From positions 1 through 22,217 of the IMG/VR virus record IMGVR_UViG_3300030329_005019: a DNA stretch of 22,217 bases. One strand, 5' to 3'. Below the pieces are notes generated by a model that saw nothing but the letters and a program-made list of their open reading frames with translations, did not search any database and was not told the DNA's origin. Origin of the DNA: a virus. Made by a program: the position numbers and the translations under genes. How positions within the stretch are numbered: position 1 is the first letter of the stretch; each line of letters starts with the position of its first letter. Of the stretch, positions 1 to 22,217 are shown in pieces.

Positions 1-2
1 CA

Positions 3-65
3 GAATCAGGTCTTGAAATCACCATCCCCGAAACCCATATGCTGTATTCATTTACAGACTTATAA
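3..65 (+). CDS. C-terminal end of an upstream structural gene (partial)
   Basis: Frame 3 is open from the window edge and stops at TAA 63-65, giving about 20 residues that end MLYSFTDL. The stop overlaps the strong ribosome binding site (TAAGGAGG, 63-70) of the next gene, which is the usual tight spacing in this operon and is the main reason to accept the frame. The other forward frames are poorer: frame 2 has an early stop at 14-16, and frame 1 stays open only into the next start. What the protein is cannot be told from 20 residues. Its place directly before a decoration-like gene suggests the major capsid protein, which is inference from gene order only. Confidence 0.5.
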   Translation, partial: ESGLEITIPETHMLYSFTDL

Positions 66-80
66 GGAGGATATTGAATA

Positions 81-548
81 ATGAGAAGTGATTATCTTAA
101 TGAAAATAGTTCACTGACTGGTACTTATGTAAAGAAAATTAAAAAAATTACTGAGAACTATACAGTGACTGAAGCGGATAGTGGAACTATATTTTTAGTA
201 CACCCAGTTGCAACAACCGAGTTAGATTTGCCAACTGTGGCAGACCTTCCTCCAGGTTGGAATTGCGAAGTATGGGTAACTGAAGATACAGATGGTTCTG
301 ATGGCGGAATGGGTCAAATCGTTAATATCGATTTTGGTTCAGGAACTGACATCGTAGGATACATTGCATCTATTGCAGATGCAGCTGGTGATGTTGCGGT
401 AAATAATGATGATTATATCAACTTTACTGCTGCAGCCAGTCCTGGCGACCATGTTAAAATATTTACCGATGGAAATCGTTGGTATGTAGAAGGTATGGCT
501 GCTGCATGTGCATCTGATACATTGTTCCATACAGGTGCTGCTTCATAA
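81..548 (+). CDS. Putative head decoration-like beta protein, 155 aa
   Basis: This predicted soluble, acidic protein is rich in Gly, Asp, Thr and Val and has the pattern of phage beta-sandwich surface proteins. A short N-terminal tail (residues 1-25) is followed by a segment with TVTEADSGTIFLVH, then PPGWNCEVWV near residues 57-66, and GNRWYVEG near the C-terminus. I recognise this order (SG-T-F, then GW-C, then a final DG-N/R-WYVEG strand) from head-decoration or hypothetical virion proteins of marine phages; no exact family can be assigned by eye. There is no signal peptide or membrane segment. The start is set by AAGGAGG at 64-70, ten bases upstream. It sits at the left end of the structural operon, where a decoration protein normally follows the capsid gene. 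A domain of a fibre or spike is the main alternative. Confidence 0.5.
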   Translation: MRSDYLNENSSLTGTYVKKIKKITENYTVTEADSGTIFLVHPVATTELDLPTVADLPPGWNCEVWVTEDTDGSDGGMGQIVNIDFGSGTDIVGYIASIADAAGDVAVNNDDYINFTAAASPGDHVKIFTDGNRWYVEGMAAACASDTLFHTGAAS

Positions 549-614
549 AATCCGAATCAATAAGGATTAATAGTTTTGTAGAACTATGGGAGCTATCGAT
601 AAAGGGTGGCTCCC
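549..614 (+). other. Two small hairpins in the 106-bp gene-free gap
   Basis: The first inverted repeat pairs AATCC (549-553) with GGATT (564-568) around a 10-base loop and is followed by a short TTTT at 574-577. The second pairs GGGAGC (588-593) with GCTCCC (609-614) around a 15-base loop. No long U tract follows the stronger second stem, so it is not a textbook intrinsic terminator. The gap stands out because most other junctions in the window are under 20 bases or overlap. An RNA processing or partial termination site between a highly expressed head gene and the downstream genes is plausible but is inference. Confidence 0.35.
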
Positions 615-654
615 GAATCTACTAAAAATTTTAATAATTAACATGGAGATACAA

Positions 655-840
655 ATGGCAGTAAAATCAAAAGGATTTGTCTTAGACCCTACTCCTGGAG
701 CTGATGATTCAAGTGGGAGTGTAGCAGATACAGTTCAAAATTATATTGATGGATTAGATACAACGCCTAATATAATAGAAACTTCTATGACAACATTAGG
801 TCATAGAATATTTGTTTTAGTGACTATTGAAACTGACTGA
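655..840 (+). CDS. Hypothetical small virion-region protein, 61 aa
   Basis: I chose the ATG at 655 rather than the in-frame ATG at 586, because GGAG at 645-648 lies six bases upstream of 655. The earlier start has no ribosome binding site and would run through the second hairpin at 588-614. The protein starts MAVKSKGF, has an acidic Ser/Gly-rich middle (PGADDSSGS), a possible short helix (VADTVQNYIDGL) and a hydrophobic C-terminal strand (RIFVLVTIETD). I do not recognise a named family. Small proteins of this kind commonly lie between head and neck genes in marine phages. It ends two bases before the next ATG, so it is co-translated with the neighbours. Function unknown. Confidence 0.6.
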   Translation: MAVKSKGFVLDPTPGADDSSGSVADTVQNYIDGLDTTPNIIETSMTTLGHRIFVLVTIETD

Positions 841-842
841 TA

Positions 843-1106
843 ATGCCTAGAGATTATAAAGACGAATATGAAAAATTTCAAAAAAAGAAATCTTCATATC
901 GTGCTAAGTTAAATAAATATAATCGAAAGAAAGGCACATATGGTAATGGAGATGGAAAGGATGCCTCACATAGTGGAGGTAAAATTACTGGTTTTGTGGA
1001 GTCTAGTAAGAATAAAGGCAAAAAAGAGAAAAGTCGTTTAAAGGGTTCAAAAAGAAAAACCTATAAAACTTATGATGCAAGGAAAAGGAAAAAGTATGGC
1101 AAGTAG
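843..1106 (+). CDS. Small basic protein with a degenerate HNH-like DGKD motif, 87 aa
   Basis: The protein is very rich in Lys and Arg. Residues 1-30 (RDYKDEYEKFQ followed by a basic Tyr/Asn/Lys helix) and a following GDGKDASH motif match the order seen in a small phage family whose members read DYK-EY, basic helix, GDGKDV-H, then an Asn-rich HNH half ending in NRS. Here the first His is kept, but the usual NN-S-NL core is replaced by a short Gly/Lys stretch (SGGKITGFVESSKNKG), so catalysis by an HNH-type site looks doubtful. A DNA- or RNA-binding role near the head genes is more likely. It starts two bases after the previous stop with no clear ribosome binding site, suggesting coupled translation. 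The family assignment comes from motif memory, not from a search. Confidence 0.55.
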   Translation: MPRDYKDEYEKFQKKKSSYRAKLNKYNRKKGTYGNGDGKDASHSGGKITGFVESSKNKGKKEKSRLKGSKRKTYKTYDARKRKKYGK

Positions 1107-2449: not shown

Positions 2450-2456
2450 GAGAGTT

Positions 2457-2861: not shown

Positions 2862-2870
2862 GGAGATAAA

Positions 2871-5800
2871 ATGGCAACAAATTGGATTATAGAAACATTA
2901 ACAAGTGCGGTAACATCAACAGATGACAAAACTGCAAGTCTTGCTGATGATAAGTTTTTTAAGATAATAGATGGTACTGGGACTGGAACAATATGGAACG
3001 TTTTAAATGATGCAAATGATTTTTATAGTATGCAATTATTTGGTCATTCGGGTCAACCTGCAAAATTTTATATAACAGCAGACCAAGGTGAAGATTTAGC
3101 GGATTCATGGTTGTGGCAAATAGCTGATGATGGGGAAATGACATGGGCATTAAGAACAGGTGGTGGAGCAGGATTAGAAGTTGAGGACGATACATATACA
3201 ACAAGATTAACTCTTGATACTAGTGGCAATCTCACAACATTAGGTGATTTAACTGTAACAGGTGCTGATATTACTCTTGGTGCTGATGCAGATGGTACAG
3301 ATAGAAGTATAACATTTGGTCATAGTACATTAAAAACAATTATGGGTATTGATGATTCTGCAGATGCATTTGTAATTAATACTGATGCAGCGTTTGATGG
3401 AACTCTTGCAAATAATTCATTTTCTATCGATGCAAGTCATAATGCAATTTTAGCAGGGAATCTTGCTGTAACTGGAGATACTACATTAACAGGAGATTTA
3501 GCAGTTAATGGAGACAATATAACATGTGATGGGAATTTAGAGATAGATTCTACTAATTTCACTGTTGATGCAACTGGAGATATAGTCTTAGATGCAGCTG
3601 GAGGTGATTTTACAGTTTCTGTTAGTGATACTTCAATAATGGAGCTTGATACAAGTTCTATGTTATTTCAATCTACAGGATTAGGCGATAAAAATACATT
3701 ATTTGGAAAGAATGCTGGAGATACATTCAATACAAGTGGTGGAAGTCCTTATGGAAACACATTGATTGGAGAAGATTCTGGTACAGCTATAACACATGCC
3801 GATTACAATACAGCTATTGGAGTAGATACTCTTAAAGCTAATGTTACAAGTGCAAATAATACAGCTGTTGGATATGCATCTCTTTCTGCTCAAACTGCTG
3901 CAAGCAATACAGCCGTTGGTTATCACGCAGGGAAACTCACTGTAGGGGCAGATGGGAATACTTTAATAGGAGCTAATGCTTTTGGAGGAAACACTGCAGC
4001 AGCAGTTAATAATGTTGTAGTTGGACGCTCTGCTTTTTCAGCATCTTCATCAGCAGCTCCAGATGGGAATATTGCAATGGGATTTGAAGCTCTAAAAAGT
4101 GCTACAAATGCATGTACTCATAATATCGCTATAGGATATGAAGCAATGGATAATGTTTCTGCTCCAGGAAATTTTAATATAGCAATTGGTTATCAAGCAC
4201 TTGATACTAATGGAGTTACATCGAATAATCTTATTGCTATAGGGTCTGATGCTATGGGCAGTGGCGCAGTTGATACTGGAAGTGCACAAATTGCTATTGG
4301 GCAGAATGCATTAAATTCTCTTACTGACGGAACAACTAATACTGCTATAGGATATAGGGCTGGTTCCGCAATGGCCACAGGTTCTAATAATACAATCCTT
4401 GGATATGACGCTTTAAAAAGTGCCACTTATGGAGACAATGTTGCGATAGGTTATTTAGCTGCTGCTAATATTACTGGAGCAGATGCACATGGTAATACTG
4501 TCGTAGGCACAAATGCTCTTGCTACTAGTACTGCTCAATCAGAAGAAAATGTAGTAATAGGTAAGAATGCTATGTATGGAACTGAATTAGATGTAGATAA
4601 AAATGTAGCAATAGGAGCTTATGCTTTAGATACTGCAGGCGTTAATACAGAAGGTACAATAGCGATTGGTGCTGGTGCTATGGGAGCTGGGGCTGTAACA
4701 AGTAATTATTGCGTTGGAATTGGATGGAATGCTTTAAATGACCTCACGAGCGGTGGTAAAAATGAGGCAATTGGTTATCAGGCAGCATATTCATTAACTA
4801 CTGGTGCGTCTAATATTGCTTTAGGCGAAGGTACACTGAAGACTATGGAGGCAGCTAACGGAAACATTGCAATCGGTTCTTATGCCATGGAACTTTTAAA
4901 TCATGCTGATGCTGATTATAATATAGCGATTGGATTTGAAGCATTAAGTTCAGCAACCACTTCTGACAGTTGTTTGTGTAATATCGCAATAGGTATGGAA
5001 GCTATGGAACAACCTACTTCTCCTGGGAATAATAATATTGCTATAGGTCAACATACATTAGACAATGCAAGTTTTGCAGGACATAGGAATATAGCTATTG
5101 GTCAAAATGTGATGGATGCTACAGCTACAGGTACTGTTGATAACATAGCTATAGGTTATAATGCTTTGGGTGACGGAAATGTAGCTGCAACTGGTCAAAA
5201 TATTGCAATTGGAAGAGCTGCATTAAAAGATTCTACATCATATCAACAAGTCGCCATAGGTTATTATGCAGCAAAGGCACAGACAGATGCTACACTTAGT
5301 ACAGTTGTAGGTTATAAAGCTCTTGAAAATAATACTCAAGGAGATGGAAATGTAGCAATAGGGTCTTATGCTTTACAGGATGCTAATGGTGTTGATGGTG
5401 CTCAATATAATACTGCAGTCGGTGTAAATGCGGGTAAAGATGTTACAACAGGAACATATAATGTATTTTTAGGTGCAAATTCAGGAAAAGCTCTTACAGA
5501 AGGAGATAATAGTATAGCTATAGGTTATAATTCATTAATGACTGCTACTACTGCAGGTAATAATGTAGCAATAGGCGAAGATGCGTTAAGAATGAGTGCC
5601 CAAGCAGGAAATACAGCTGTAGGTCATGAAGTTGCTAGACATACAACAGGGGGGAATCTTACTGCAGTTGGTTTTAGAGCACTTAAGGCAAGTGGGACAA
5701 CTTATGCAGTTTCTACATGTGATACTGGTACTGGTGGTACATTTACTGTAGGGAGTGGTGTATATAATAATTCTACTTCTATACAACATGCAACTTCAAG

Positions 5801-7724
5801 TGCTATTACTGTTGGCGATGGAGTTGCTGGTACTGGGATTCCAAGTAATGCTTATGTTTCATCTATAACCGATACTGAAAATTTTGTTTTATCTGCTTCT
5901 ACTACTGGTGGCTCTTTAACTGGACAAACATTAACATTTACAAAAGCGACAGTAACATGTGATGCTGCTCCAATATATGTAGGAGATTCAATTACGGGGA
6001 CAGGTTTAGGTGGAAATGGGGATGTATATGTTGTTGAGTCAATTAATGCAGGAACAGAAGGTGATGATACTGGAAGTGGAGTTACTAGTTTTCAATTAAA
6101 TAATGCAAGTGGAGTAACAACTCAATCAAATACTACACTCACTTTTGACCCTACATTAACAGGATGGCAAAATACTGCATTTGGAACTTCAGCTGGTGAA
6201 GCTTTAAGAGGTACTACAAATGATAATACGTTAATAGGAGCAAGAGCTGGAAAAGTTTTAAGAAATGGTTCTGGAAATACTATTGTAGGAAAAGATGCAG
6301 GGTTTGATTTAACAAATGGACAAAATAATGTATTTGTAGGAAAACAGGCTGGTTATGAGACTACAACTGGCATTAGAAATGTATTTGTAGGACAGAATGC
6401 TGGAAAAGATAATACAACTGCAAGTAATAGTATAGCTATAGGTTATAATGCACTTAGCGATAATGTCACATCAACTAATAATGTAGCTGTAGGTTATGAC
6501 TCTTTAAAACTATGTACTGCAGGGCAAAACACAGCTATGGGATATAGTGCAGGTTCATCTATTGTTGAAGGAACTCAAAATGTAATTATTGGTTCAGGTG
6601 CGTTAGATGCAGCAGTTGAAGATAGTAGAAATATAGCAATTGGAGTCGCTGCTTTAGGCTCTCAAAATGCTGGAGGAACTGACGACACAGCTACAAATAC
6701 TAATAATATAGGTATAGGGTATGCTGCAGGTACATCTATAACCACGGGTACAAATAATACTATAGTTGGTACTACAAGTGCAGATGCATTAACTATAGGG
6801 GAGCAGGTCGTAACACTTGGTAATGGGGCTTTAGGAAATGGTGTCGAGGTATCTAACTCTGTCGCAATTGGGTATAATGCCCTTCTTCATTGCGATAGTG
6901 GAGGAAGTTCAGGAAGTACGACAAATTATTATAATACAGCAGTAGGGAGTGGGTCTGGAACGTATACTACCACAGGTACTCATAATACATTTATAGGAGG
7001 CCATACAGGTAGAGGAATAGATGCTGAAAAGTTAACAGGAGCTTCAAATACAGCAGTAGGAGCTCTTGCTGGGTATCTATTACAAGGGGCAGCTTCAGAA
7101 AATGCACTAATAGGAAAATCTGCTGGAAATTCAATAACCACAGGGACAAAGAATACTTGCTTAGGGGAAAATTCTGATGTTAGTGCTGCAACGGGTACAA
7201 ATCAAACAGTTATAGGTAATGATGCACAAGGGATTGGAGATAATTATGCAGTTATTGGAGATGGTGGTACAACTAGATTATATGCAGCAGATGATACAGG
7301 TGCAACATTATATGCAGGAAGTGCAACTGTGCAAACATCTGATGCTAGAATTAAAGAAAACGTTAATAATACTATTCTTGGGTTAGATTTTATAAAAGAA
7401 TTAAGGCCTGTAGAATATAAAAAAAGACAACCAGTTGATTATGACGAAAGTCTTAAAAAGGAATTATCTTGGTTTAAAAATGGAAGGACTCCAAGAACTT
7501 TAGATGAGTTGGATAAAAATAAAATAAGAACTGGTTTTATTGCTCAAGAAGTAGGTGAGGTTTTAAAAAATATAGGTTTTGATGATAATAATGATATTGT
7601 TGCAATTGATGAAACTAATACACAGCAACATATTGCATATTCTAAAATTGTACCGCCTCTTGTTAAAGCCGTTCAAGAATTATCAAAACAAGTAGAAGAA
7701 TTAAAAAGTAAACTAGGAGAATAA
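2871..7724 (+). CDS. Giant tail fibre with YadA-head-like repeats and peptidase S74 chaperone, 1617 aa
   Basis: Residues 1 to about 270 form a beta-rich N-terminal part with repeated 'LTTLGDLTVTG'-like strands common in phage fibres. Residues about 275-940 and 1097-1460 consist of short 'N-(T/I/V)-A-(I/V)-G-Y-x-A-L' repeats, the beta-roll pattern of trimeric autotransporter heads. Residues about 942-1096 are a non-repeat insert. The C-terminus is a peptidase S74 (endo-N-acyl neuraminidase type) intramolecular chaperone: SDARIK at 1490-1495 gives the Ser1490/Lys1495 dyad, followed by GLDFIKELRPVEYKK, TGFIAQEVGEVL and a coiled-coil end KAVQELSKQVEELKSKL. Known members trimerise and cleave themselves just before that Ser, so the mature fibre should end near residue 1489. 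GGGAG at 2861-2865 sets the start. Receptor binding is likely; the ligand is unknown. Confidence 0.9.
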   Translation: MATNWIIETLTSAVTSTDDKTASLADDKFFKIIDGTGTGTIWNVLNDANDFYSMQLFGHSGQPAKFYITADQGEDLADSWLWQIADDGEMTWALRTGGGAGLEVEDDTYTTRLTLDTSGNLTTLGDLTVTGADITLGADADGTDRSITFGHSTLKTIMGIDDSADAFVINTDAAFDGTLANNSFSIDASHNAILAGNLAVTGDTTLTGDLAVNGDNITCDGNLEIDSTNFTVDATGDIVLDAAGGDFTVSVSDTSIMELDTSSMLFQSTGLGDKNTLFGKNAGDTFNTSGGSPYGNTLIGEDSGTAITHADYNTAIGVDTLKANVTSANNTAVGYASLSAQTAASNTAVGYHAGKLTVGADGNTLIGANAFGGNTAAAVNNVVVGRSAFSASSSAAPDGNIAMGFEALKSATNACTHNIAIGYEAMDNVSAPGNFNIAIGYQALDTNGVTSNNLIAIGSDAMGSGAVDTGSAQIAIGQNALNSLTDGTTNTAIGYRAGSAMATGSNNTILGYDALKSATYGDNVAIGYLAAANITGADAHGNTVVGTNALATSTAQSEENVVIGKNAMYGTELDVDKNVAIGAYALDTAGVNTEGTIAIGAGAMGAGAVTSNYCVGIGWNALNDLTSGGKNEAIGYQAAYSLTTGASNIALGEGTLKTMEAANGNIAIGSYAMELLNHADADYNIAIGFEALSSATTSDSCLCNIAIGMEAMEQPTSPGNNNIAIGQHTLDNASFAGHRNIAIGQNVMDATATGTVDNIAIGYNALGDGNVAATGQNIAIGRAALKDSTSYQQVAIGYYAAKAQTDATLSTVVGYKALENNTQGDGNVAIGSYALQDANGVDGAQYNTAVGVNAGKDVTTGTYNVFLGANSGKALTEGDNSIAIGYNSLMTATTAGNNVAIGEDALRMSAQAGNTAVGHEVARHTTGGNLTAVGFRALKASGTTYAVSTCDTGTGGTFTVGSGVYNNSTSIQHATSSAITVGDGVAGTGIPSNAYVSSITDTENFVLSASTTGGSLTGQTLTFTKATVTCDAAPIYVGDSITGTGLGGNGDVYVVESINAGTEGDDTGSGVTSFQLNNASGVTTQSNTTLTFDPTLTGWQNTAFGTSAGEALRGTTNDNTLIGARAGKVLRNGSGNTIVGKDAGFDLTNGQNNVFVGKQAGYETTTGIRNVFVGQNAGKDNTTASNSIAIGYNALSDNVTSTNNVAVGYDSLKLCTAGQNTAMGYSAGSSIVEGTQNVIIGSGALDAAVEDSRNIAIGVAALGSQNAGGTDDTATNTNNIGIGYAAGTSITTGTNNTIVGTTSADALTIGEQVVTLGNGALGNGVEVSNSVAIGYNALLHCDSGGSSGSTTNYYNTAVGSGSGTYTTTGTHNTFIGGHTGRGIDAEKLTGASNTAVGALAGYLLQGAASENALIGKSAGNSITTGTKNTCLGENSDVSAATGTNQTVIGNDAQGIGDNYAVIGDGGTTRLYAADDTGATLYAGSATVQTSDARIKENVNNTILGLDFIKELRPVEYKKRQPVDYDESLKKELSWFKNGRTPRTLDELDKNKIRTGFIAQEVGEVLKNIGFDDNNDIVAIDETNTQQHIAYSKIVPPLVKAVQELSKQVEELKSKLGE
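3691..5690 (+). repeat. First block of beta-roll repeats inside the fibre gene (about 38 units)
   Basis: By hand I count about 38 units with the core N-x-A-(I/V/L)-G followed two to three residues later by A/S-L/M/G, spaced 12 to 30 residues apart. Examples are NTAIGVDTL, NIAIGYEAM and NVAIGSYAL. The DNA is only partly repetitive: short stretches such as ATAGCTATAGGTTATAAT recur (for example near 5514-5531 and 6433-6450), while linkers between units differ in length and sequence. This is a protein-level repeat, not a CRISPR or a simple tandem DNA repeat. Confidence 0.85.
6166..7262 (+). repeat. Second block of beta-roll repeats inside the fibre gene (about 20 units)
   Basis: After the insert the same motif resumes with about 20 units, beginning NTAFGTSAGE and ending QTVIGNDAQG and YAVIGDGG just before the S74 domain. 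Many units in this block end in AG (SAGE, RAGK, DAGF, QAGY, NAGK), whereas the first block mostly ends AL or AM. The two blocks may thus have different histories or pack differently. Confidence 0.8.
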
Positions 7725-8360: not shown

Positions 8361-9143
8361 ATGAAAAAAAATGATAAGGGGGTAGTGCAAAGGGCTATTG
8401 TAACTCCCGATAAGCACTTCCCCTTGCATGATGCAGATGCAATAAATGTAGTAAAAAAAGCAATAGAAATGGTAAAACCTGATACTTATATAGATTTAGG
8501 TGATACTGGAGAGTGGACACATTTTAGCACTCACCATTGGAAAGGCAGATTCGCTAAGCCGATGGAAGATTTAATTCCTTTGCTTGACCAAGATATAGCT
8601 GAAGTTAATGCAGGAATGGATTGGATAGATGAGTCTTTAGATAAAATCGGCTGTAAAAAGAGGTATTTTGTTCAAGGTAACCATGAGGTATGGTTAGATA
8701 AATTTGTCACTAGATACCCTTATTTAAAGCATTATATGACTGAAAAGGCTTTAAGGTTGAAAGAAAGAGGATATAAATACTATCCTTATAACAATAAAAA
8801 GAATTTAAAGATAGGAAAAATTAATTTCACACATGGAAAGTATACCACTAAATATCATGCTTATAAACATCTTGACCATTATGGCGAGAGTATTATGTAT
8901 GGACACACCCATGACCTTCAAAGGTTTACTAAAACTTTCAATGGAGGCACTATAAGTTCATGGAGTTTAGGATGTTTAAAAGATATAGAAAATGATGAAG
9001 ATTGGTTGGGTGGGAAATTAACTAATTGGAATCACGCTTTTGCAATTATAGATTGGTTTAAAGGTGGAAATTTCAAAGTAGAAGTTGTAGAGATTATAAA
9101 AGGTAAAACAACATTATGGGGGAAAATAATAGATGGTAAATAA
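8361..9143 (+). CDS. Calcineurin-like metallophosphoesterase, 260 aa
   Basis: The five metal-site blocks of the metallophosphoesterase superfamily are present in order: D17-K-H19 (the DxH block), G47-D48 (GD block), G106-N-H108-E109 (GNHE block), H158-G159, and G181-H182-T-H184 (GHTH block). These residues normally bind two metal ions and hydrolyse phosphomono- or diesters. The length is typical and the domain is intact. There is no signal peptide or membrane segment, so the enzyme should act in the cytoplasm. The gene stands between small membrane proteins in a virion and lysis operon rather than among DNA genes. Its substrate cannot be read from the sequence; nucleic-acid ends, nucleotides and phosphoproteins are all possible. 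Ribosome binding is modest (AGGG, 8353-8356), and the start follows the previous stop by six bases. Confidence 0.88.
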   Translation: MKKNDKGVVQRAIVTPDKHFPLHDADAINVVKKAIEMVKPDTYIDLGDTGEWTHFSTHHWKGRFAKPMEDLIPLLDQDIAEVNAGMDWIDESLDKIGCKKRYFVQGNHEVWLDKFVTRYPYLKHYMTEKALRLKERGYKYYPYNNKKNLKIGKINFTHGKYTTKYHAYKHLDHYGESIMYGHTHDLQRFTKTFNGGTISSWSLGCLKDIENDEDWLGGKLTNWNHAFAIIDWFKGGNFKVEVVEIIKGKTTLWGKIIDGK

Positions 9144-9976: not shown

Positions 9977-11974
9977 ATGGGCAAATTGACAACATCTTTA
10001 AAATTAACATCGGATGTTTATGGTGCAAGTGGCAGTCAGCAATATTCAACATCACATATTGCCTCATCTGCATTTGATACAACATTTAAAGTTGACAATA
10101 CTGATTCTTTTAAAGAACTAATTGAATTTAAACCTGATGGAAGTAAGACATATAATAAGTTCAATTATTTGTTATTGGCGAACGATGGAAATCAATCTGC
10201 CGAAATTCAAATATTATTAAGGGAGTTTGGAGTAGATGATGATATTGTTGACGCAAACCCCGAATCTGCGACAATTGATTTTGTTTTGCATCCTGGAAAA
10301 TACTTTGCATTACCAACATCTAAAATGATTGTATATTCATCTGACCCTGATGATAATGATGTATATGCTGCAAGTGATACTTCGGCTGGGAATAAAGGAG
10401 GAACTAGTGCATATGGTGTAGCTTATGCTACTACTGGACCAACATTTATAGACCCTCCTGGGTATTTCATTGCAAGTCAAACAAATGGAGACCCAGTAAG
10501 TCTTACGGCTTCAGGAAACTTGTTTGAAGCAGACATAGAAGAAGATTTTTTCAAAAATCAAATAATGGGAGATACTACTACAGGTCATGCAGAAGCTGAC
10601 CATATAGCTTTATTTGGAGAATGTCATGCAGACGAGGTTGGAACTCTTCAAACTATCTCTGGATTAGCTACAGGGACAACATTTGATAATTGTAAATTAA
10701 CTTTAAGTGCAGTAGGAAACAATATATCATCAGCAACAGGAACATATATAGGAGCATATTCATCAGTTGCAAGACTTAATGGTGCTCATACAGCAAGTGT
10801 TACTACTATAACATTTGAAAATAATGCTGGTAGCAATGGTAGTGCTGATGGGCAAATGTTTAAATTGTATGATATAATACGTGTAGGAAATGAATTGATG
10901 CAAATAACTGATGGTGTTCCTAATCAAACAACTTTCACTGTTAAACGTGGAGTATTAGGAACTACAGCAGCAGCTCATGCAGACCAAGATGCTATTGGTT
11001 TTCATTATATGAATGAGGTTTTAGAGTATTTAGATAGTACTGATGGGACCTCTAAAGCAGCTACGGCTGGATGTACTTTAATGCAAGGTGCTAGTAATAT
11101 ATATACTAATTCGTCTGGAAAATTTTCTTCTAACACCTTCTTTGGATTAGGGAGAGATTTTGCATATCCATGTGGATTAGTACCTGGTTCTATTGGAATA
11201 AAATTCTATTCTCAAGCGAGATTACCATTAGGTTTAAAGGGTATTGGTTCTAGTACTACTACGGGATTAGCTGCAAATACAGCATATGAATTTAAAATAA
11301 CAGTAGATGGTGGTACTCAGACTGTTTGCAACTTTACGACAGATGCAACTAATACTACTTTCGGTAATAGCTTTTCTGGTACTGGGGTATTAAAAAAGAT
11401 TCAAGATGAATTAGATGCTGAGAATTTAGATGTAACAGTTGCATTAGAAAACAATGATGTTGTATTTAGAACTAAATCAAGATATAAAGGAAAGAGTTCA
11501 ATAGCATTAGCTGCAGGTTCTGATGGGGCTGTTGCAGAATTGTTTGGAACGGGTAAATTCCCATTAACAACTGCATTAAGACCTGTTATAAGTCCTTCTT
11601 TACCAATGGATTCAGATGAAGATAATATAATGTTTGATGATGGTATGGGAAGATTGCGAAGAAAAAATGGTGGTCATGGATATATTAATTATGAAACTGG
11701 AGCTTTCAAGTTGATTGGATGCCCAGCTAATTCTCATATGAAAATTGCTTGTTCAACAAATTCAGCATTAAGTGGAGCAGTTAAAAGTGGAAGAGAGAAT
11801 TTTGTTCCTGTGATTAAAGCTCGTAGTTTAAATGCTTATAGAGATGCGTTGATAAGAGTTGTTGCTTATGATGATATTATTGATGATGATAATGTTGAAT
11901 TGTTGATGACTTCAGTAGAAGGCGATACATCAGGTTTATTGCAAGATACCAATTCTGAGGGTGGTTCTTATTAA
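9977..11974 (+). CDS. Putative tail structural protein, 665 aa
   Basis: This is a beta-rich, Thr/Ser/Gly-rich virion protein with no signal peptide. The N-terminal 110 residues (TSLKLTSDVYG onward, then FNYLLLANDGNQSAEIQILL and ATIDFVLHPGKYFALP) look like a beta sandwich. Around residues 290-325 a segment with IIRVGNELMQI and VKRGVLGTTAAAHADQDAI matches a common phage tail motif ('VGDE-M-V ... V-RG--GTTAAAH--G'). Residues about 433-520 form another beta module (AYEFKITVDGGTQ ... VVFRTKSRYKGKSS), and the C-terminal part has GRLRRKNGGHGYINYETG. AGGAG at 9966-9970 sets the start. It lies just before the nozzle-like gene and overlaps it by TAATG, so a tail or distal-tail role is likely. The exact component is unknown. 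Confidence 0.55.
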   Translation: MGKLTTSLKLTSDVYGASGSQQYSTSHIASSAFDTTFKVDNTDSFKELIEFKPDGSKTYNKFNYLLLANDGNQSAEIQILLREFGVDDDIVDANPESATIDFVLHPGKYFALPTSKMIVYSSDPDDNDVYAASDTSAGNKGGTSAYGVAYATTGPTFIDPPGYFIASQTNGDPVSLTASGNLFEADIEEDFFKNQIMGDTTTGHAEADHIALFGECHADEVGTLQTISGLATGTTFDNCKLTLSAVGNNISSATGTYIGAYSSVARLNGAHTASVTTITFENNAGSNGSADGQMFKLYDIIRVGNELMQITDGVPNQTTFTVKRGVLGTTAAAHADQDAIGFHYMNEVLEYLDSTDGTSKAATAGCTLMQGASNIYTNSSGKFSSNTFFGLGRDFAYPCGLVPGSIGIKFYSQARLPLGLKGIGSSTTTGLAANTAYEFKITVDGGTQTVCNFTTDATNTTFGNSFSGTGVLKKIQDELDAENLDVTVALENNDVVFRTKSRYKGKSSIALAAGSDGAVAELFGTGKFPLTTALRPVISPSLPMDSDEDNIMFDDGMGRLRRKNGGHGYINYETGAFKLIGCPANSHMKIACSTNSALSGAVKSGRENFVPVIKARSLNAYRDALIRVVAYDDIIDDDNVELLMTSVEGDTSGLLQDTNSEGGSY

Positions 11975-14900
11975 TGCCTAAAGAAACTTATACCTTATCA
12001 TCTTTTGAGAGAGGACTAATAACATCTCAAGAGGCAAGGGATTTAGAACAAGATGCAATCCCAGGTGCTTCAGGATTTGATTTTTCTAAAAAAGGAAAAG
12101 TTAAAATTCTAGGAGATGGATTTAAAGATGCTCTTGACCCTACTCTTGCATCCTATTTTACTGGTGGTTTAGCAGAAAGAGAACGGATTTTAACTTTTAG
12201 ACATGATTACGATTTAGGTGTTGAAGGAGAATGGTCGAAAAATGAAATATTTTCTGGTTACATGGCTCCTCCAACTTTTAGAGAAAAAGGAGTGCAGTAT
12301 TATGTTGTTACTTCTGGGGAAAATAGGAATGAAATAACTCTTATTGCAAGTCATGAAAATGATGCTGGGGAGCAAGTTTTTTCAACTATACCATGGGATG
12401 AACCTACATATAATTCAACTTCTCAGGGTCACCCTCATGAGTCATTTACAGAGGGTACAATACTTAATTTTGACCTTGACCAAAATGGTTTCAATCAAAG
12501 AAATCAAAAAATGCATGTAGGACCAGATGCAAATGCTGATATCGTTGGATATTGGGTAAATAATGGATTTAGATATTGTGATGCTAATTTTGAAAATAAA
12601 AATAATAATATAGTTGGATATTTTGGACATATAAATAGAAAGTATTTAAGTAATTTAGATTCAATTAGATTACCATCAGATGGAGAGCCTTCTGAAGACC
12701 AATATAATCCTTATGCAAATACAAGTAATTCATCATTCACAAGGAATCATTGGCATTTTCAAACTTATGAAGATTATTTTAGTCTATTAGGTCCTAATGC
12801 TGAATTGTTAGAATCAATACCAAGACATCCATATGATGATACAAATGGTGCTGTGAAATTTAAAGATAAAACTGCAGGGTTTACTGGATTTCTCAAAGGT
12901 TCGTTACTTACTACTGATAGGCTTGATGGTCAATCCAACTGGAATAGTGATGGAAAGCCTTTCAATAATTATCAGATTTCTACTTATGCTTTTCCAAATT
13001 TAGAGAGAATTGATGATAATACTAACGAAATTGTTTCATCAGTAGCAGCTACAGCAAGTACTACTCCACTTCATGAAGGGACAATGGAAGATGGACATGA
13101 ATTAAGACGAAAATGGATGTTTGGAAGCTCTATTTTATATGATGGTGACCCTAAAGGTATTTGTCAAGAAACTGGAATTGCAAAAACTCATGGCAGTAGT
13201 AAAATCGATGGTGTAAGAATATATGAACCAAATATTTTAAATTTAAAAGATATATCTGAGCATTTAGATTATGAAACAGATGGACTAAATCCATGGGTTC
13301 AGATTGGCTCAACTACCAATGGAAACGCTATTACAACAACAGATGGTGTCGAACCAGCTACTACTAATTTTATCCCAGGAGATTTTAATGCTCTTCCTAA
13401 AATAGTTTTTAATTGGACATTCCTTCCTTGGTGGGCAGATACAGATAAAATAATACCTGCAACTGAAAGTAATCATCTTAGTACTGATAGACCTTTGTGG
13501 GACGCTAGGGTTGTAGGATTTAGAATTTATATGAGAGATATAGAAGATGAGGCTAAAACATGGTATAATCTTGCAACAATTGATGCTTTGAGAGGAATGA
13601 TTTATTATAATGGATGTAATATAGAATCTGAACCATGGGTGCCATTAGGTATGCTTGATGAGACAAATGGTTTAGTTCAAAGATGGGAATTATCTGAACA
13701 GCAAGAGATAATTAACAATTGGTCGCATAGAATACCTCTTTGGGGCAATAGTACTTTAGGTAGAAATGGAGTAAAATGGGAGTCTCCACATAACCATAAT
13801 ACTAGAGTATTAGTTTCCTCTTCAAATTATGATATATATATTCCTGATACTGAGATTTCTGCTTTGACAGACCCTTATAAAAATTGTGGAGTTAATCAAA
13901 GTGTAAATATAGAATCTATACCTGACCATACATATGAGCTTCTTAATGGATATAAACATAATTATTCTCCTACGATGCTTTCACATGTAGATAAATTAAA
14001 GGGAAATGTAGAATGGATTCATGATTTTGGAGGGGATGACCCTGAGACTGAGGACGAGGTTGAGGAGGAAGAAAGAAGAAATGTTGCACGTATGGCTGAA
14101 TCATATGGAAATATATATAGATTTAAAACTTCAGCTATTTTAAATGATAGAGTTTACATTGGAAATATAATGGATGTAGATACTCAATTTCATCAACCTG
14201 ATAGAATTTTAAAAACTGAACCAGGGCAGCATGATATTTTCCCAGACGATGGATTTCATCATATAGATTTAGCTACTGGCGATGGAGATTCTATTGTACA
14301 TATGATTACATATAATGGCAAATTATTTGTATGGAAACATCACACATTATATGTTATTAAAATATTAGATGATGGACAAGAAGTAATTGAGTCAACTCAT
14401 TACAATCATGGAATTGACAACAAATATCATGTTATTATAACGCAACATGGTCCATGTTGGTTTAATAAAGCTGGATTATATTTATATACTCATGAGAATA
14501 AAATTGACAACTTAATTGAAGATAAAATCATGAGAGGTGTATATATAAAAGATATGTCGGAATTTTATGGTTCAACTTTAAATGATATATTAGGTAGTGG
14601 AACTTCTGGAGGAATACAGGATTATATCTCTAATATAATTGTAGGTAATCCTGGCAATATTCACTTATTCGATGTTAATGATGATGGAATATTGGATGTA
14701 TTAGATATTGTTGAATGGACTAATTTAATACTTGATGGAGATGTTGATGCTATTGCACTTTTTGAGGATTTTGAATTGCAAGATTTATATGTATCTCAAG
14801 TTGCTTTTGGATGGAAAGGATTTGTAGCATCAGATGGACTTGGGAAATTAGGAAAGCCCATGATTGGTTATTTGCCAAATGATAATAAAATAATTATCTA

Positions 14901-15615
14901 TAAAAGTTCAGATGCATCTGCTTTTCCTCAAGTGAGTGGTGATGCTTATATTTATGACTTTACTTTAAAGAACTTTTCATATGGAAAGAAAGTATTTCCA
15001 AGTGGTAAAAATGTAATTAAAAGCAATTTTGTAAATGACGCAGAGGGAAATTTATTATATTTAGCATCTTATAATGACCCAGAAGGTGTAAATGAATCTG
15101 AAATAAAGATATTGCAGTGGGATAATGCATCTACGAATAAATTTAATGTTGAATTTAAAACTAAAGATATTGACTTTGGTTCTCCTGGGTTAAGGAAGAA
15201 AGTTTATAAAATATATGTATCTGTTGCGGGTCAAGTTCAACCCAATGTACAAGTATTGTATTCAATTAATGGTTCTGACCAATTTTCTCCTTTAAATAGA
15301 TTTGAAGGAGTTCAAAACTACGATGTAGATACAGGGTTTATGCCAGGGCATGAGTCTACTAGTTTTAATTCAAGCAGTCCTGAACTTGAAAATCAATGGT
15401 ATACAGCGGTTTTAAAACCATCTAGCTCTGGTCAAAGTTTAAATAATATATACTCAATTCAACTATTGTTTACTGGAAGAAATTATGGATTGGATGTTAA
15501 TTTGGAGCCTACGGCAACTAAATTGGGAAGTAATTCAGATATTGGAGATTTTGTAAGTTCAACATTTCAAATCAATGATATTACTATAGTATATAGGGCT
15601 AAAAATGCCAGGTAG
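11974..15615 (+). CDS. Putative tail nozzle-like protein with a dockerin-type loop, 1213 aa
   Basis: The N-terminus (SSFERGLITSQEARDLEQDA, then GASGFDFSKKGKVKILGDG) is the usual opening of long phage proteins that list a 'no-fixed-order' set of strands and close a short tail. Around residues 735-860, PDRILKTE, FPDDGFHHIDLATGDGDSIV, GKLFVWKHHTLYVIKI and GPCWFNKAGLYLYTHENKI follow the beta-propeller-like core of such proteins. An acidic stretch (about residues 687-705, many Glu/Asp) precedes it. Residues 900-911 read D-V-N-D-D-G-I-L-D-V-L-D, a dockerin-type calcium loop followed by a helix. Comparison is with P22 gp10/T7 gp12-type or 'stabilisation' proteins by pattern and position only. Start: GAGGGTGG before a TAATG junction. 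Confidence 0.6.
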   Translation: MPKETYTLSSFERGLITSQEARDLEQDAIPGASGFDFSKKGKVKILGDGFKDALDPTLASYFTGGLAERERILTFRHDYDLGVEGEWSKNEIFSGYMAPPTFREKGVQYYVVTSGENRNEITLIASHENDAGEQVFSTIPWDEPTYNSTSQGHPHESFTEGTILNFDLDQNGFNQRNQKMHVGPDANADIVGYWVNNGFRYCDANFENKNNNIVGYFGHINRKYLSNLDSIRLPSDGEPSEDQYNPYANTSNSSFTRNHWHFQTYEDYFSLLGPNAELLESIPRHPYDDTNGAVKFKDKTAGFTGFLKGSLLTTDRLDGQSNWNSDGKPFNNYQISTYAFPNLERIDDNTNEIVSSVAATASTTPLHEGTMEDGHELRRKWMFGSSILYDGDPKGICQETGIAKTHGSSKIDGVRIYEPNILNLKDISEHLDYETDGLNPWVQIGSTTNGNAITTTDGVEPATTNFIPGDFNALPKIVFNWTFLPWWADTDKIIPATESNHLSTDRPLWDARVVGFRIYMRDIEDEAKTWYNLATIDALRGMIYYNGCNIESEPWVPLGMLDETNGLVQRWELSEQQEIINNWSHRIPLWGNSTLGRNGVKWESPHNHNTRVLVSSSNYDIYIPDTEISALTDPYKNCGVNQSVNIESIPDHTYELLNGYKHNYSPTMLSHVDKLKGNVEWIHDFGGDDPETEDEVEEEERRNVARMAESYGNIYRFKTSAILNDRVYIGNIMDVDTQFHQPDRILKTEPGQHDIFPDDGFHHIDLATGDGDSIVHMITYNGKLFVWKHHTLYVIKILDDGQEVIESTHYNHGIDNKYHVIITQHGPCWFNKAGLYLYTHENKIDNLIEDKIMRGVYIKDMSEFYGSTLNDILGSGTSGGIQDYISNIIVGNPGNIHLFDVNDDGILDVLDIVEWTNLILDGDVDAIALFEDFELQDLYVSQVAFGWKGFVASDGLGKLGKPMIGYLPNDNKIIIYKSSDASAFPQVSGDAYIYDFTLKNFSYGKKVFPSGKNVIKSNFVNDAEGNLLYLASYNDPEGVNESEIKILQWDNASTNKFNVEFKTKDIDFGSPGLRKKVYKIYVSVAGQVQPNVQVLYSINGSDQFSPLNRFEGVQNYDVDTGFMPGHESTSFNSSSPELENQWYTAVLKPSSSGQSLNNIYSIQLLFTGRNYGLDVNLEPTATKLGSNSDIGDFVSSTFQINDITIVYRAKNAR

Positions 15616-17779
15616 TAAAAATAGAAATATTGGCATACCTAGAAATGTAAGTAGTGATAATTTTAGAATATCTAAAAGTGGTGGTAAAATCAAGCTATTT
15701 GCAAAGTATAATAATAAATGGTATGCTACCCCTTTAGAAGATGCTTTTAATATTAATAACCTTAATCAAGCACGAAAACATAGCATTGTAACATATAATA
15801 ATGGGTCTGGAGAATTAAATCCCGCTATAACTGCAGAGCCTAATGGCAAATTGTCAATAAGAGATAATAAAAGTGATTCAAAGGTTGTTATTAAAAATGA
15901 TTCTGGGGTTTTAAAAGTTAGAAATTCTAGGGATGATGAAGATGCAGTTGTAAAAGCAAAAACACTTAGGCTCCCTAGTGTTGCTCCTACTCCTGTTGTT
16001 GGAGATTTGTATTATAATTCTGGCGGAGGTGGACATATTTTACATGGTGTAGGGCTAGGAATAAATGCTTTTACTACAACTACCGCTACTTCTCAAAGTG
16101 CCTCCTTAGCTATTATCTCTAAAGGGAATGATGGAACAGCAGGTTATGGAGATGCTTTTGTAAAATTATTATCAGAATCAACAAATGTTTGGGCGTTTGG
16201 AAATGATGCTAGTGATAGCAATAAATTTAAAATTCACAATGGCTCTGCTTTAGTAGATGATTCTTTACTTGATTTAGATAGTAGTGGGAACATGTCCATA
16301 GATGGAACTTTGACCGCAGGTGGTTTTACAACAACAGGAACTTGGACTTTTGATACATCTGCAGGTGGAACTACAGGAATAACACAAATTAATGTTGGTA
16401 GTGCTTTTACTGATAATGATACGACGTTAATGTCTGCTGGGGCAATCAAAGAAAAGATAGAAGCTTATGGTTATTCTACAGCATCGGGAGACATAACAGG
16501 AGTTACTCTTACTGGAGATAGTGGTGGAGCTTTAGCTGACACAGCTGGTTCAGCAGATTTTACAATAGCAGGTGGAACTAATTGTGCTACATCTGGTTCT
16601 GGCAGTACTATTACTGTTAATGTAGATGATGCTTTTTTGAAAAATGATGATGATGATACTATGGCTGGTACATTAACAATAGATAAGGATGTATCTAATA
16701 CTAGTGCAGGTACATACGAAGGTTTATCTATTGATTTTGATAAAACAGGAACAAGTACTAGCGATAATACATTAAATGCACTTAGAATAGATGCAGATAA
16801 TACTACTGCAACTAATGGGACAAATGAATTAAATGGAATAAACAATACCCCTACTCTAACCCATAATGCTGATGCAGGGACAGCTATTGTCAGAGGATTA
16901 CATCAAACAGTTACAGGTCATAGTAATGGTGCTGCTCGAACTTTTGGTATAAACCAAATAGTTACAGGTGGTGATTTAAGTAGAATGTATGGTATATACC
17001 AAACTGTAGATAATGGTGGGGTAGATATTCTATTAACCAGTTCTGCTAATACAGGTGATTATTGTACTATTGCAACTACTAATAATGGAGCAACAACTAT
17101 TCAAACTATAGATGCGGATGCAGAATTAGCTAATTTCATACTAGATATAGATGGAGACATAGAGCTTAATGCTGATGGTGGAGAGATTACTTTAAAAGAT
17201 GATTCTGCTACATTTGGAGAATTTTCTACAGCTGCTAGTAAAAGTAGCTTTAAATTATATGAATCAGGTGGTTCTTCTACGGATGACTATCTTCAAATAG
17301 TTACTGCAGCTCATGGAGCGACTGTAATTAAAACTCATGATGATGCTGCTGGAGCTGCGAATTTAGGTTTTAATATTGATGGTCATATTGATATGAATGA
17401 TTCTCCAGTGGGCTTTAATCAATTTGAACCTACATATGGTGGAACTAATACTGATGTTGACTACAGAACCAATAGCAATAAAGCTTTTGCTACTTTTGGA
17501 GCAGGGAGTATTACTAATATAAGATTATATTTTCCTGCTATTTCTGGGAATTTCATTTTACTTTTAAAACAAGATGGCACTGGAAGTAGAACTGTAACAA
17601 ATTGGAATGCATATGATTCGGCTGGTAATGCAGCAGGTGGAAGCAGTACTGTTAAATTTGCAGGAGGCTCTAATCCAACATTAACTACAGATGCAAATCA
17701 TGTTGATATATTTTCTTTTTATTGGGACGCAGATAATGAAATTGCTTATGGAGCAGCAACTTTGGACTTCCAATTCTAA
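15605..17779 (+). CDS. Tail fibre / receptor-binding protein, 724 aa
   Basis: The N-terminus is basic and starts MPGSKNRNIGIPRN, probably the part that attaches to the tail. The middle has fibre-type strands (LLDLDSSGNMSIDGTLTAGG near residue 220-240, TLMSAGAIKEKIEAYGYS, NDDDDTMAGTLTIDKDVS) as in many marine phage fibres. The last 100 residues follow a fibre-tip pattern I recognise: FPAISGNFILLLKQDGTGSR, then a gap and NPTLTTDANHVDIFSFYWD, ending IAYGAATLDFQF. This C-terminal module usually ends phage fibres and is likely to be at the tip. AGGG (15595-15598) gives the start, which overlaps the nozzle gene by 11 bases. It is followed by the methyltransferase gene at a TAATG junction. Receptor unknown. 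Confidence 0.75.
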   Translation: MPGSKNRNIGIPRNVSSDNFRISKSGGKIKLFAKYNNKWYATPLEDAFNINNLNQARKHSIVTYNNGSGELNPAITAEPNGKLSIRDNKSDSKVVIKNDSGVLKVRNSRDDEDAVVKAKTLRLPSVAPTPVVGDLYYNSGGGGHILHGVGLGINAFTTTTATSQSASLAIISKGNDGTAGYGDAFVKLLSESTNVWAFGNDASDSNKFKIHNGSALVDDSLLDLDSSGNMSIDGTLTAGGFTTTGTWTFDTSAGGTTGITQINVGSAFTDNDTTLMSAGAIKEKIEAYGYSTASGDITGVTLTGDSGGALADTAGSADFTIAGGTNCATSGSGSTITVNVDDAFLKNDDDDTMAGTLTIDKDVSNTSAGTYEGLSIDFDKTGTSTSDNTLNALRIDADNTTATNGTNELNGINNTPTLTHNADAGTAIVRGLHQTVTGHSNGAARTFGINQIVTGGDLSRMYGIYQTVDNGGVDILLTSSANTGDYCTIATTNNGATTIQTIDADAELANFILDIDGDIELNADGGEITLKDDSATFGEFSTAASKSSFKLYESGGSSTDDYLQIVTAAHGATVIKTHDDAAGAANLGFNIDGHIDMNDSPVGFNQFEPTYGGTNTDVDYRTNSNKAFATFGAGSITNIRLYFPAISGNFILLLKQDGTGSRTVTNWNAYDSAGNAAGGSSTVKFAGGSNPTLTTDANHVDIFSFYWDADNEIAYGAATLDFQF

Positions 17780-18327
17780 TGGCATTTAAAGATAATACAT
17801 TAGAGTTTTTTGACACTAAAATAGTAAATGAAGATGGTATGGAAGTTATGATGAACTGGGAGTCTCCGATAATGGAAAAATCTGCTGAATATATATGTCA
17901 TAATAAGGGTGATATTCTTGAAATAGGTTTTGGTATGGGGATATGTGCTGATTACATACAATCTCAAGGAGTTAATAGCCATACTATAGTAGAGATACAT
18001 CCACAGATTTTAGAAAGATTAAATACTTGGGCTAGTGGTAAGTCTAATGTAACTATAATTGAGGGAGATTGGGCTAATTTAAGCCTTTCAGACACATATG
18101 ATGGTATCTTTATTGATACATTTGGAGATGATAATTGGAGTCAATTTAAAACATTTGCATTAGCAAGGTCTAAGTCAGGAGCTAAGATTACTTATTGGAA
18201 TAATTTTGAAGAAGAAAGAAATGAACATTCATTCGATTCTATATCATTTGAATCTATTTCTATATCTCCAGATGAAAATGGATATATGGATGCAAGTGTT
18301 TATTATATGCCAAAGGTGGTGATTTAA
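17779..18327 (+). CDS. SAM-dependent methyltransferase resembling GAMT/RMT2 arginine-type enzymes, 182 aa
   Basis: The class I methyltransferase core is clear. Residues 46-54 read ILEIGFGMG (SAM-binding motif I), an acidic residue E72 lies in VEIHP, VTIIEGDW (91-98) is the next strand, and DGIFIDTF (108-115) carries a candidate catalytic Asp113. Residues 21-33, MEVMMNWESPIME, match the 'W-(E/D)-P-M' signature placed before motif I in guanidinoacetate N-methyltransferase and in RMT2-type protein arginine N-methyltransferases, and the FIDT position matches the YDTYP loop of that family. A substrate with a guanidino group is therefore plausible, but it could be a protein, a small molecule or a sugar. 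The length is short, lacking the extra C-terminal part of cellular GAMT. It is coupled by TAATG to fibre genes on both sides. Confidence 0.8.
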   Translation: MAFKDNTLEFFDTKIVNEDGMEVMMNWESPIMEKSAEYICHNKGDILEIGFGMGICADYIQSQGVNSHTIVEIHPQILERLNTWASGKSNVTIIEGDWANLSLSDTYDGIFIDTFGDDNWSQFKTFALARSKSGAKITYWNNFEEERNEHSFDSISFESISISPDENGYMDASVYYMPKVVI

Positions 18328-18995: not shown

Positions 18996-19000
18996 TAATA

Positions 19001-19072
19001 ATGATTGTATTTATAGGGAAGAAAATGGTATTTTATATTGACGAAAACCACAAAAAAGCAGAGGTTTTATAA
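19001..19072 (+). CDS. Possible 23-aa leader-like ORF before the internal protein genes
   Basis: ATG 19001 opens a frame of 23 codons (MIVFIGKKMVFYIDENHKKA, then EVL) that stops at TAA 19070-19072, overlapping the next ATG as TAATG. A second in-frame ATG at 19025 with a purine-rich GGGAAGAAA before it would give 15 residues. The coupling is the only support. The stretch 18996-19071 could simply be a short leader containing the AGAGG binding site (19060-19064) of the following gene. Confidence 0.25.
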   Translation: MIVFIGKKMVFYIDENHKKAEVL

Positions 19073-19845: not shown

Positions 19846-20309
19846 TGGCTAATGGAATTGACGATTATTGGGATTCCATGTTCGAATCAGAATATGGTGG
19901 AAGCAATCCCTATCAATCATTTTTTAATAGATATTTAGGTCAAGATGTTGATGTATATAATCCTCAATCTATTGCCGATGTTTTAATGGAGCAATATGAT
20001 GTTGAAGGATTGACTTCAGATATGTTTACACCAATGGATAGAAATTTAATGGAAGCATCTGACCCTACGACATACGATGCATATAAACGAATGCAAACTA
20101 ATCCTTTAATGAGAAAGTATAGTAAAGAGGTTGCAGGTGGAGCAGGTATTTTAAATCCAAATAAAATCAGACAAAGAGCAATGAGGCAATATCAGATGGG
20201 TGTAAGTGATATAACGCAAAATATATATGGAAGGACAAGAGCAGCGAGTAGTAAAGTTAAGGATTGGATGAAGTCTGCTATAGATAAAGTTTTTAGAATG
20301 AAATACTAA
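19845..20309 (+). CDS. Hypothetical virion-region protein, 154 aa
   Basis: The N-terminus is acidic with many Tyr/Phe (WDSMFESEYGGSNPYQSFFN). The middle is helical (IADVLMEQYDVEGLTSDMF), and the C-terminal 50 residues are basic (IRQRAMRQYQMGVSDITQN to SAIDKVFRMKY). There is no membrane segment. The gene is coupled to its neighbour by TAATG with GGAGG (19831-19835). I do not recognise the family. Its place between two other unannotated virion-type genes suggests a component of the same internal complex. An acidic front and a basic end would suit binding to another virion protein and to DNA, which is inference. Confidence 0.5.
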   Translation: MANGIDDYWDSMFESEYGGSNPYQSFFNRYLGQDVDVYNPQSIADVLMEQYDVEGLTSDMFTPMDRNLMEASDPTTYDAYKRMQTNPLMRKYSKEVAGGAGILNPNKIRQRAMRQYQMGVSDITQNIYGRTRAASSKVKDWMKSAIDKVFRMKY

Positions 20310-20320
20310 GGAGAAGTATT

Positions 20321-21205
20321 ATGGGATTTAAATTATTTAGACCAAAAACATGGAAAATAGGAGCAGGGAAAGGTAAACCATTATTGCATCATCTTACTCC
20401 ATGGAAAGACCAAAGTTTATCGGAACATAATAAAGCATTAGGTAGGTCTAAGTTTGCAAAAGGATTGCATAAATATGTATATAACCCATTAGTTCATGGC
20501 TATTTGGGAGATTATGAGGGTGATGATGACTTGCTTGGATTAACAGGTGCTAATCTTTATGAATCAAAAGATGATAGTAGAAGAGGTTTAGAAAATGTAC
20601 TTAAAGGTCTGGGGCAAGGAAAGACTCCAAAAGGAAGATATGGGCTTGGAGAAGGCTTAAGAGATGCTGGTATAGATTATTCATTTGACGTAACAGATGC
20701 TAAATCTTTAGGAGAAGCTCTTGCTAAAGCACAATTTGAAAAGCAAATGGTTTCTGACTTAGAAGGTGGTGATTATGCATCTGCAGTTGGCACCTATGGG
20801 AGCGGTAAAAGAAGTGTAGAAGGATATGGATATATAAAAGAAAGTGATTATGAAAAAGCATGGGATGAATTTCAAAAAGAGCAAGGAGATGCTTTTTATA
20901 AAATGGGGAGTATGTATGCACTTAACCCATTTGAATTATCTCAATTAGACCCTGCTTCTAAAAAGTGGAGAGATATGTTAAATCCACGTCAAGCTGAAGC
21001 AACTGATATTTATGGAGAGCAAATTGAAAGTATTTATTCGGGCATTGGTGGAGATATCCAAACTGGAGAAGCTGCGAGAAAAAGGAAAGATGCTTTAGAT
21101 ATGTATGGACAAAACATATTAAGTGCAAGAGGAGATGTAAGGTCTGCTCGTGAAGGACAAATGGATAAGACATTAGAAGATATATTAAGTGCATTTCAAA
21201 GTTAA
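20321..21205 (+). CDS. Hypothetical virion-region protein, 294 aa
   Basis: The start is well defined by AAGGAG, 7-8 bases upstream (about 20308-20313). The N-terminal 60 residues are basic with aromatic residues (MGFKLFRPKTWKIGAGKGKP). The middle is Gly-rich with acidic and basic patches, and there is a long helical C-terminal half (residues 170-294, EKAWDEFQKEQGD and later MYGQNILSARGDVRSAREGQ) with Gln, Glu, Lys and Arg. No enzyme motif, membrane span or signal peptide is visible. It lies in the probable internal-protein block, where long helical proteins are usual. Function unknown. Confidence 0.5.
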   Translation: MGFKLFRPKTWKIGAGKGKPLLHHLTPWKDQSLSEHNKALGRSKFAKGLHKYVYNPLVHGYLGDYEGDDDLLGLTGANLYESKDDSRRGLENVLKGLGQGKTPKGRYGLGEGLRDAGIDYSFDVTDAKSLGEALAKAQFEKQMVSDLEGGDYASAVGTYGSGKRSVEGYGYIKESDYEKAWDEFQKEQGDAFYKMGSMYALNPFELSQLDPASKKWRDMLNPRQAEATDIYGEQIESIYSGIGGDIQTGEAARKRKDALDMYGQNILSARGDVRSAREGQMDKTLEDILSAFQS

Positions 21206-21214
21206 GGATTTATT

Positions 21215-22217
21215 ATGGCAGAACCAAAAGGCAAATGGAGAACACAAGCAACTGTTGATTTAGGCTCACTCATTCAAGGACTTGCAATGATGGGAAGTCA
21301 ATTTGATAAACAAGAAAGTGCTGATGAGTTGTGGGGAGATAAAGTTGTATCAAGATTAACAGCACCTCAATCAGCATTTTATATTAGCCCAAATGAATAT
21401 GACGTTAGTATAATCGAAGATGGTCTAAGTGATTTGCGAACTCAACATCAAAATTTAATTGACAATAATAGCGATAAATATAAAGCTGGGACATATGCTT
21501 ATGATTCTATTTCTGAAAGAATAGAGGATGCTGAGAGGCAACTAACAAAAGCTAATGAATTTCAATTGGATTATCAGAATCTTTTATCAATTAATGATAA
21601 GTCTACGGAATTAAGAGCAGTTCCAGTCACGGATGAAATGGGAAATATTTTATATGAAAAAAATCCTGATGGTTCTATAGCCGTAGATGAGGATGGAAAT
21701 CAAATTGAAATGATGAAGATGGAAAATGATTGGACTGAAATGCAATCTCTTATATATAATACTCCATCTGATGAATATGGACGAGTTATGTTTGATGATA
21801 GAGTAATGGAATTAAGAGATTCTATATTAGAAAGAAATATTGCCGTTGGAAGTGCTTTATCTTCATTTGAACAGAAATACAAAGATTGGCTAAATATCAA
21901 TGATGTTGTTACTGGCGATATGAATAAAAAAATAACAAATATGTATAATCTTATGGGTCAAGAAAAAATGAATCTTGAAAGAATTGATGATAACTTTCAA
22001 GGTGACTTTATATTAGATAAGGAATACTTTGAAAGATTTAAAAGGGCAGTAGATTTAGATGAATGGGAGGAATTCAATACAACAAATGCAGCTAGACTAC
22101 AAGAAAGATTTAATGAAAAAAACAATCTTATAAATACTGCCAACTCATATAGGAAAGAATATGTAGATTTATATAATAAAATTCATCCTGATGGAAGCGT
22201 AGAGCATGGGGGTTTAG
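21215..22217 (+). CDS. Large helical virion-region protein, truncated by the window (334 residues seen)
   Basis: ATG 21215 follows AAGGA (21204-21208) by six bases. The frame is open to the window edge with no stop, so only the N-terminal 334 codons are seen. The sequence is strongly helical and acidic, for example LIQGLAMMGSQFDKQESADE near residue 19 and DLRTQHQNLIDNNSDKYKA, with many Asn/Asp/Glu/Lys and regular hydrophobic residues that suggest coiled coils. Around residues 145-170 there is a short beta-hairpin-like stretch with repeated 'G-(N/S)-I' turns (GNILYEKNPDGSIAVDEDGN). The length and helical character fit an internal virion or tape-measure-like protein, but which of these cannot be told without the C-terminal part. 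Confidence 0.55.
   Translation, partial: MAEPKGKWRTQATVDLGSLIQGLAMMGSQFDKQESADELWGDKVVSRLTAPQSAFYISPNEYDVSIIEDGLSDLRTQHQNLIDNNSDKYKAGTYAYDSISERIEDAERQLTKANEFQLDYQNLLSINDKSTELRAVPVTDEMGNILYEKNPDGSIAVDEDGNQIEMMKMENDWTEMQSLIYNTPSDEYGRVMFDDRVMELRDSILERNIAVGSALSSFEQKYKDWLNINDVVTGDMNKKITNMYNLMGQEKMNLERIDDNFQGDFILDKEYFERFKRAVDLDEWEEFNTTNAARLQERFNEKNNLINTANSYRKEYVDLYNKIHPDGSVEHGGL

Follow-up and report, generated by a model that had tools for sequence, protein, structure and literature searches.

Absence of GATC from a marine tailed-phage fragment and its all-or-none loss among relatives, a probable case of evasion of host type II restriction

Phage T7 is poor in GATC and there are staphylococcal phages free of it, losses which have been attributed to host enzymes or to repair. 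On a broader scale, some site has been completely or almost completely eliminated from roughly one phage genome in ten, and in nearly all cases the sites concerned are of the orthodox type II kind (PMC6286503). In that work GATC is listed as a word recognised by a known type II enzyme of the orthodox kind and avoided in phages, is also counted among the type IIM sites, and is under-represented in every one of the 46 phages with a matching enzyme in the host (PMC6286503). A further precedent is phiX174, in which mismatch repair is the accepted or debated cause of GATC loss (PMC5014478). Here we have analyzed a window of 22,217 bases, the full length of an IMG/VR virus record, from which GATC is absent. 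As in the described cases of restriction-site avoidance, a short type II palindrome has been wholly eliminated, no matching D12 methylase is found and relatives have lost other sites of type II-like appearance; unlike those cases, the host enzyme is here a putative one, and close relatives from samples of one kind are divided with unusual sharpness into all or none (PMC6286503). As in phiX174, GATC is reduced to zero and is written around by synonymous choice, but phiX174 is a 5.4-kb single-stranded DNA enterobacterial phage of a Dam+ MutH+ host, whereas the phages considered here are double-stranded DNA marine tailed phages in whose relatives other words have also been lost (PMC5014478). With phiX174 as precedent the phenomenon is already known; the loss in the window is real, and on the simplest explanation it would belong to an established type of evasion, the all-or-none pattern of which is here unusually clear.

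An incomplete fragment, the window corresponds to the virion-structure region of a tailed phage genome and encodes a tail spike, a metallophosphoesterase and large structural proteins without assigned family, replication genes being absent from the record. The tail spike-like protein (2871..7724, plus strand; phrog_4636, E 1.9e-128) terminates in a Peptidase_S74 chaperone end (PF13884, E 4.8e-8). The metallophosphoesterase, of 260 residues (8361..9143, plus strand; phrog_221, E 1.1e-24), has a match to Pfam Metallophos_2 (E 5.4e-4) that falls below the cut-off, and served as the marker for both the relatives and the tree. A dockerin-like stretch noticed by eye in the protein encoded at 11974-15615 was considered as a hint of the host and dropped, Pfam giving no match.

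A string count of the window yields no GATC on either strand, the word being a palindrome, whereas 66 are predicted by base composition and 59 or 75 by Markov models, the former model second-order and strand-specific, the latter strand-merged. The GATC-free span runs over the whole of 1..22217 (unstranded), and among all 256 tetranucleotides compared with the Markov expectation GATC has the lowest z-score and is the most under-represented. The claim of the initial annotation that the site is missing when dozens are expected is therefore borne out (0 against 59-75). Synonymous-codon shuffling carried out gene by gene, which preserves both proteins and codon usage, results in a mean of 56.2 GATC and a minimum of 44 over 300 shuffles, so that the word lies below codon- and composition-aware expectations alike (0 against 56-66). 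By reading phase, the shuffles place 31 sites where an Asp GAT is followed by C, 22 as xGA TCx and 3 as xxG ATC, and in the observed window all three phases are empty. CCGG and CGCG are likewise at zero, but their Markov expectations are just 6.4 and 2.5, and in a codon-aware scan of 1,012 words the window evidences the loss of GATC only. A depletion of GCNNGC (3 against 29 under a dinucleotide model) was discarded, as it is not flagged under the synonymous shuffles. The genome is AT-rich and CG-containing words are low everywhere, which could suggest that the absence of GATC arises from composition, codon usage or contig assembly; such an artefact is vanishingly improbable, being excluded by the Markov and synonymous-shuffle nulls, by the normal counts of CATG, AGCT and GTAC in the window, palindromes which had already been said to occur, and by the normal GATC content of sister contigs that match the window in base composition.

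The avoidance is also evident from codon choice. Within the 20 called genes of the window, Asp preceding a codon that starts with C is GAC in 32 cases and GAT in none, as compared with 437 GAT and 47 GAC when the following codon starts with A, G or T, in full agreement with the earlier observation that Asp is GAC whenever C follows. Codon reading gives examples on the plus strand at 6147..6150 (GACC), 14038..14041 and 20948..20951, the positions originally cited for such codons being accurate within a few bases. Arg after Asp is encoded by AGA eight times, by AGG once and never by CGN, so that what had been described as an invariable AGA is correct as to the lack of CGN and fails in a single AGG. 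Avoidance reaches beyond Asp, as Ile following a G-ending codon is never ATC (0 of 46).

We have gathered as relatives 80 IMG/VR loci with 67-88% identity to the window phosphoesterase; searches with tail and adaptor proteins from the window as probes returned no usable relatives in IMG/VR or in phage records. Among the 72 loci with an expectation of at least 15, 48 (about two-thirds) have exactly zero GATC, and the distribution of the ratio to expectation is bimodal, no locus falling between 0 and 0.33. The 25 zero contigs, amounting to 762 kb, contain no GATC against 2,238 expected from composition or 1,670 from synonymous shuffles, and include contigs of 49-52 kb, relatives of up to 52 kb being GATC-free from end to end; the 21 GATC-bearing records (884 kb) contain 1,979 against 2,681 expected. 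Where the bearing relatives have a GATC, the aligned positions of the zero contigs are mostly occupied by words one step away (GACC, GATT, GATA, AATC, TATC, GGTC), and within the identity bins of 65-75% the synonymous GACC is the commonest of these. On the phosphoesterase tree the GATC state changes about 10 times, at least 7 of them on well-supported branches, a number which is not firm because it derives from one gene tree and the phosphoesterase may itself pass between phages. For comparison, an arbitrary 16-base pattern was used to draw a background sample of 60 unrelated IMG/VR loci, each with 15 or more sites expected; 7 of these have zero GATC and none lies between 0 and 0.2 of expectation. 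Complete loss is therefore rather frequent among viral contigs of low GC, which agrees with the tenth or so of phage genomes published as having wholly or almost wholly lost some site (PMC6286503). What stands out in this group is the high share of zero loci and the repeated switching.

Words other than GATC have also been purged from the relatives. Applied to 25 records, the codon-aware scan of 1,012 words reveals lineage-specific purges of CCGG, CASTG, CTAG, RCGY, ACGT, GGTGA, GAATTC and CCAG, most of which we take to be sites of classical type II enzymes. One partly depleted relative (G040, L158-L160) retains a single RGATCY of about 30 and has TGATCA in the expected number, a pattern such as an enzyme with the six-base site RGATCY would leave. 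These losses bear on a distinct explanation, namely escape from Dam/MutH mismatch repair, according to which MutH would nick unmethylated or hemimethylated GATC and GATC-free phages would escape such nicks or retain an elevated rate of mutation. Indeed, this predicts the loss of GATC together with the lack of a phage methylase, as seen, and in phiX174, with no GATC in 5.4 kb, added sites alter the mutation rate (PMC5014478). However, mismatch repair cannot account for the losses of CCGG, CASTG, CTAG, RCGY, CCAG and RGATCY in sister contigs: GATC is the only word avoided in the window taken alone, but not in the group, and we regard this explanation as improbable.

The non-palindromic CCAG/CTGG is wholly absent from some relatives, with 0 against 98 in synonymous shuffles for G019 (L116-L117) and 0 against 117 for G038 (L156-L157), and CCAT, CCAA, CCTG and GCAG are normal where it is lost. 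The loss extends to L026, L035 and L197, all five being also GATC-free and L197 having no similarity to the phage group; CCAG is the one part of the finding that may be unfamiliar. In another relative (G037, L154-L155) several words have been purged together, ACGT and ACGC being at 0, CTAG at 1 and CATG at 15 when around 90-106 of each are expected by composition, and yet 40 GATC are retained.

The methylase content of these phages was inspected for signs of protection. No PF02086 (D12/Dam-type) methylase is present in the 47 records that comprise the window and 46 relatives, up to 57 kb, and the idea that such a methylase underlies the GATC-bearing state was rejected; nor do the GATC-bearing contigs contain any further candidate motif of an N6-adenine methylase. 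By motif, the only DNA-methylase-like protein is a PF01555 protein of unassigned specificity found in two zero contigs. The window itself encodes a small SAM-dependent methyltransferase of 182 residues (17779..18327, plus strand; Methyltransf_25, E 2e-6; RrnaAD, E 7.8e-6), which has no PADLOC methylase match and no sign of being a DNA methylase, and for this reason is not evidence of GATC protection. These results are compatible with a virus devoid of protective methylation, there being no D12/Dam-type gene in 46 contigs of up to 57 kb beside a window that is itself incomplete. A point against restriction does emerge here, as the GATC-bearing relatives are also without a D12 methylase, and if they met the same hosts their escape from cutting would call for some other explanation.

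In respect to gene content, no family separates zero from bearing contigs, the best occurring in 10 of the 25 zero contigs, and the differences between the two states are at the level of modules and follow ancestry. This is pertinent to a phage-encoded GATC nuclease, which would destroy host DNA and spare the site-free phage, and which would indeed give an absolute, all-or-none loss. A small family of unassigned function that is nuclease-like by eye (cluster 42, phrog_13596) is present in 8 zero contigs and in no GATC-bearing contig, but it is missing from the near-complete zero contigs G003, G004 and G010 (47-52 kb) and lies mostly within a replication module that follows ancestry. As such a nuclease cannot account for the loss of the other words either, we consider it very improbable. 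A neighbouring trio that includes an E1-like adenylyltransferase and a JAB-like peptidase occurs in six GATC-bearing contigs (G028, comprising L133-L135, G020-G023 and G033); the E1-like gene is also present in G030, and the trio has matches to defence-system models of the E1-E2 and JAB kinds. A spore photoproduct lyase-like radical SAM gene (PF20903, E 9e-22) is found in G004 (L089-L091) at contig positions 33493-34392.

The search for a host resulted in a weak lead towards Marinimicrobia, which would be the tentative host of these marine phages. Of 245 genomes from the phylum to which a Marinimicrobia record belongs, one has the phosphoesterase, at about 59% identity and on a binned contig of 5.3 kb. 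The gene is absent from a sample of 396 genomes of a Flavobacteriales order and from 6 genomes of an archaeal class, and a search of a public genome collection with it gave no match. With the terminase only distant relatives at 24-32% identity were retrieved, from mixed phyla, and the tRNA genes looked for as a guide to the host amounted to just one tRNA in 60 pieces. In the 245 genomes of the tentative host phylum there is one MutH match, with stops in the frame, and this near absence argues further against mismatch repair if the host does belong to Marinimicrobia. DpnII-family matches are found in 4 of the 245, all weak, and D12 methylases above the cut-off in 46, one of them being closest to DpnM among solved structures. 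In one genome of this phylum (L318:337-2292) the gene next after that for a DGQHR protein, a relative of phosphorothioation-associated proteins, encodes a Dam-family methylase.

The presence of Dam/DpnM-like methylases in some of these genomes is compatible with cutting by a type IIM enzyme of the DpnI type, in which GATC would be Dam-methylated in one host and cut in another, so that phages alternating between them would lose the site. GATC counts as a type IIM site, and its avoidance in 46 of 46 phages with corresponding host enzymes fits this as well (PMC6286503). Nevertheless, two kinds of host are needed, and sequence alone cannot separate this from ordinary type II cutting; we view it as quite improbable.

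Taken together, these results suggest that GATC has probably been purged under type II restriction by a putative host enzyme. Restriction is the best-supported cause because the loss is absolute and marks many relatives but not others, and because other type II-like sites have been lost; since mismatch repair predicts the loss of GATC alone, and no gene family tracks the state, a host type II enzyme is the best explanation. The GATC-specific host restriction proposed in the initial annotation is in this sense partly supported, the enzyme and the time for which a host lineage may have carried it, as well as the direction of each switch and the history, being what we infer. An enzyme with a specificity like that of DpnII, MboI or Sau3AI would cut GATC during infection of a host by a phage carrying no methylase that protects the site; fewer sites would result in better survival, and a phage with none left would be immune. 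New GATC introduced by mutation or gene exchange would be removed again, and relatives in hosts without such an enzyme would keep or regain the site.

Missing words in phage genomes could serve as a cheap record of the restriction enzymes of uncultured hosts, and GATC-free phages with close relatives near normal may allow the switches to be dated and phages to be paired with hosts that have or lack the enzyme. The multi-word footprints make the group useful in the search for unlisted specificities, such as that for CCAG. As a tentative proposal, which we would put forward as possible and no further, the GATC-free state may be a switch thrown repeatedly and to completion, tracking the turnover of restriction in an uncultured host group, with the missing words reading out enzyme specificities that would include an unrecognised one for CCAG.
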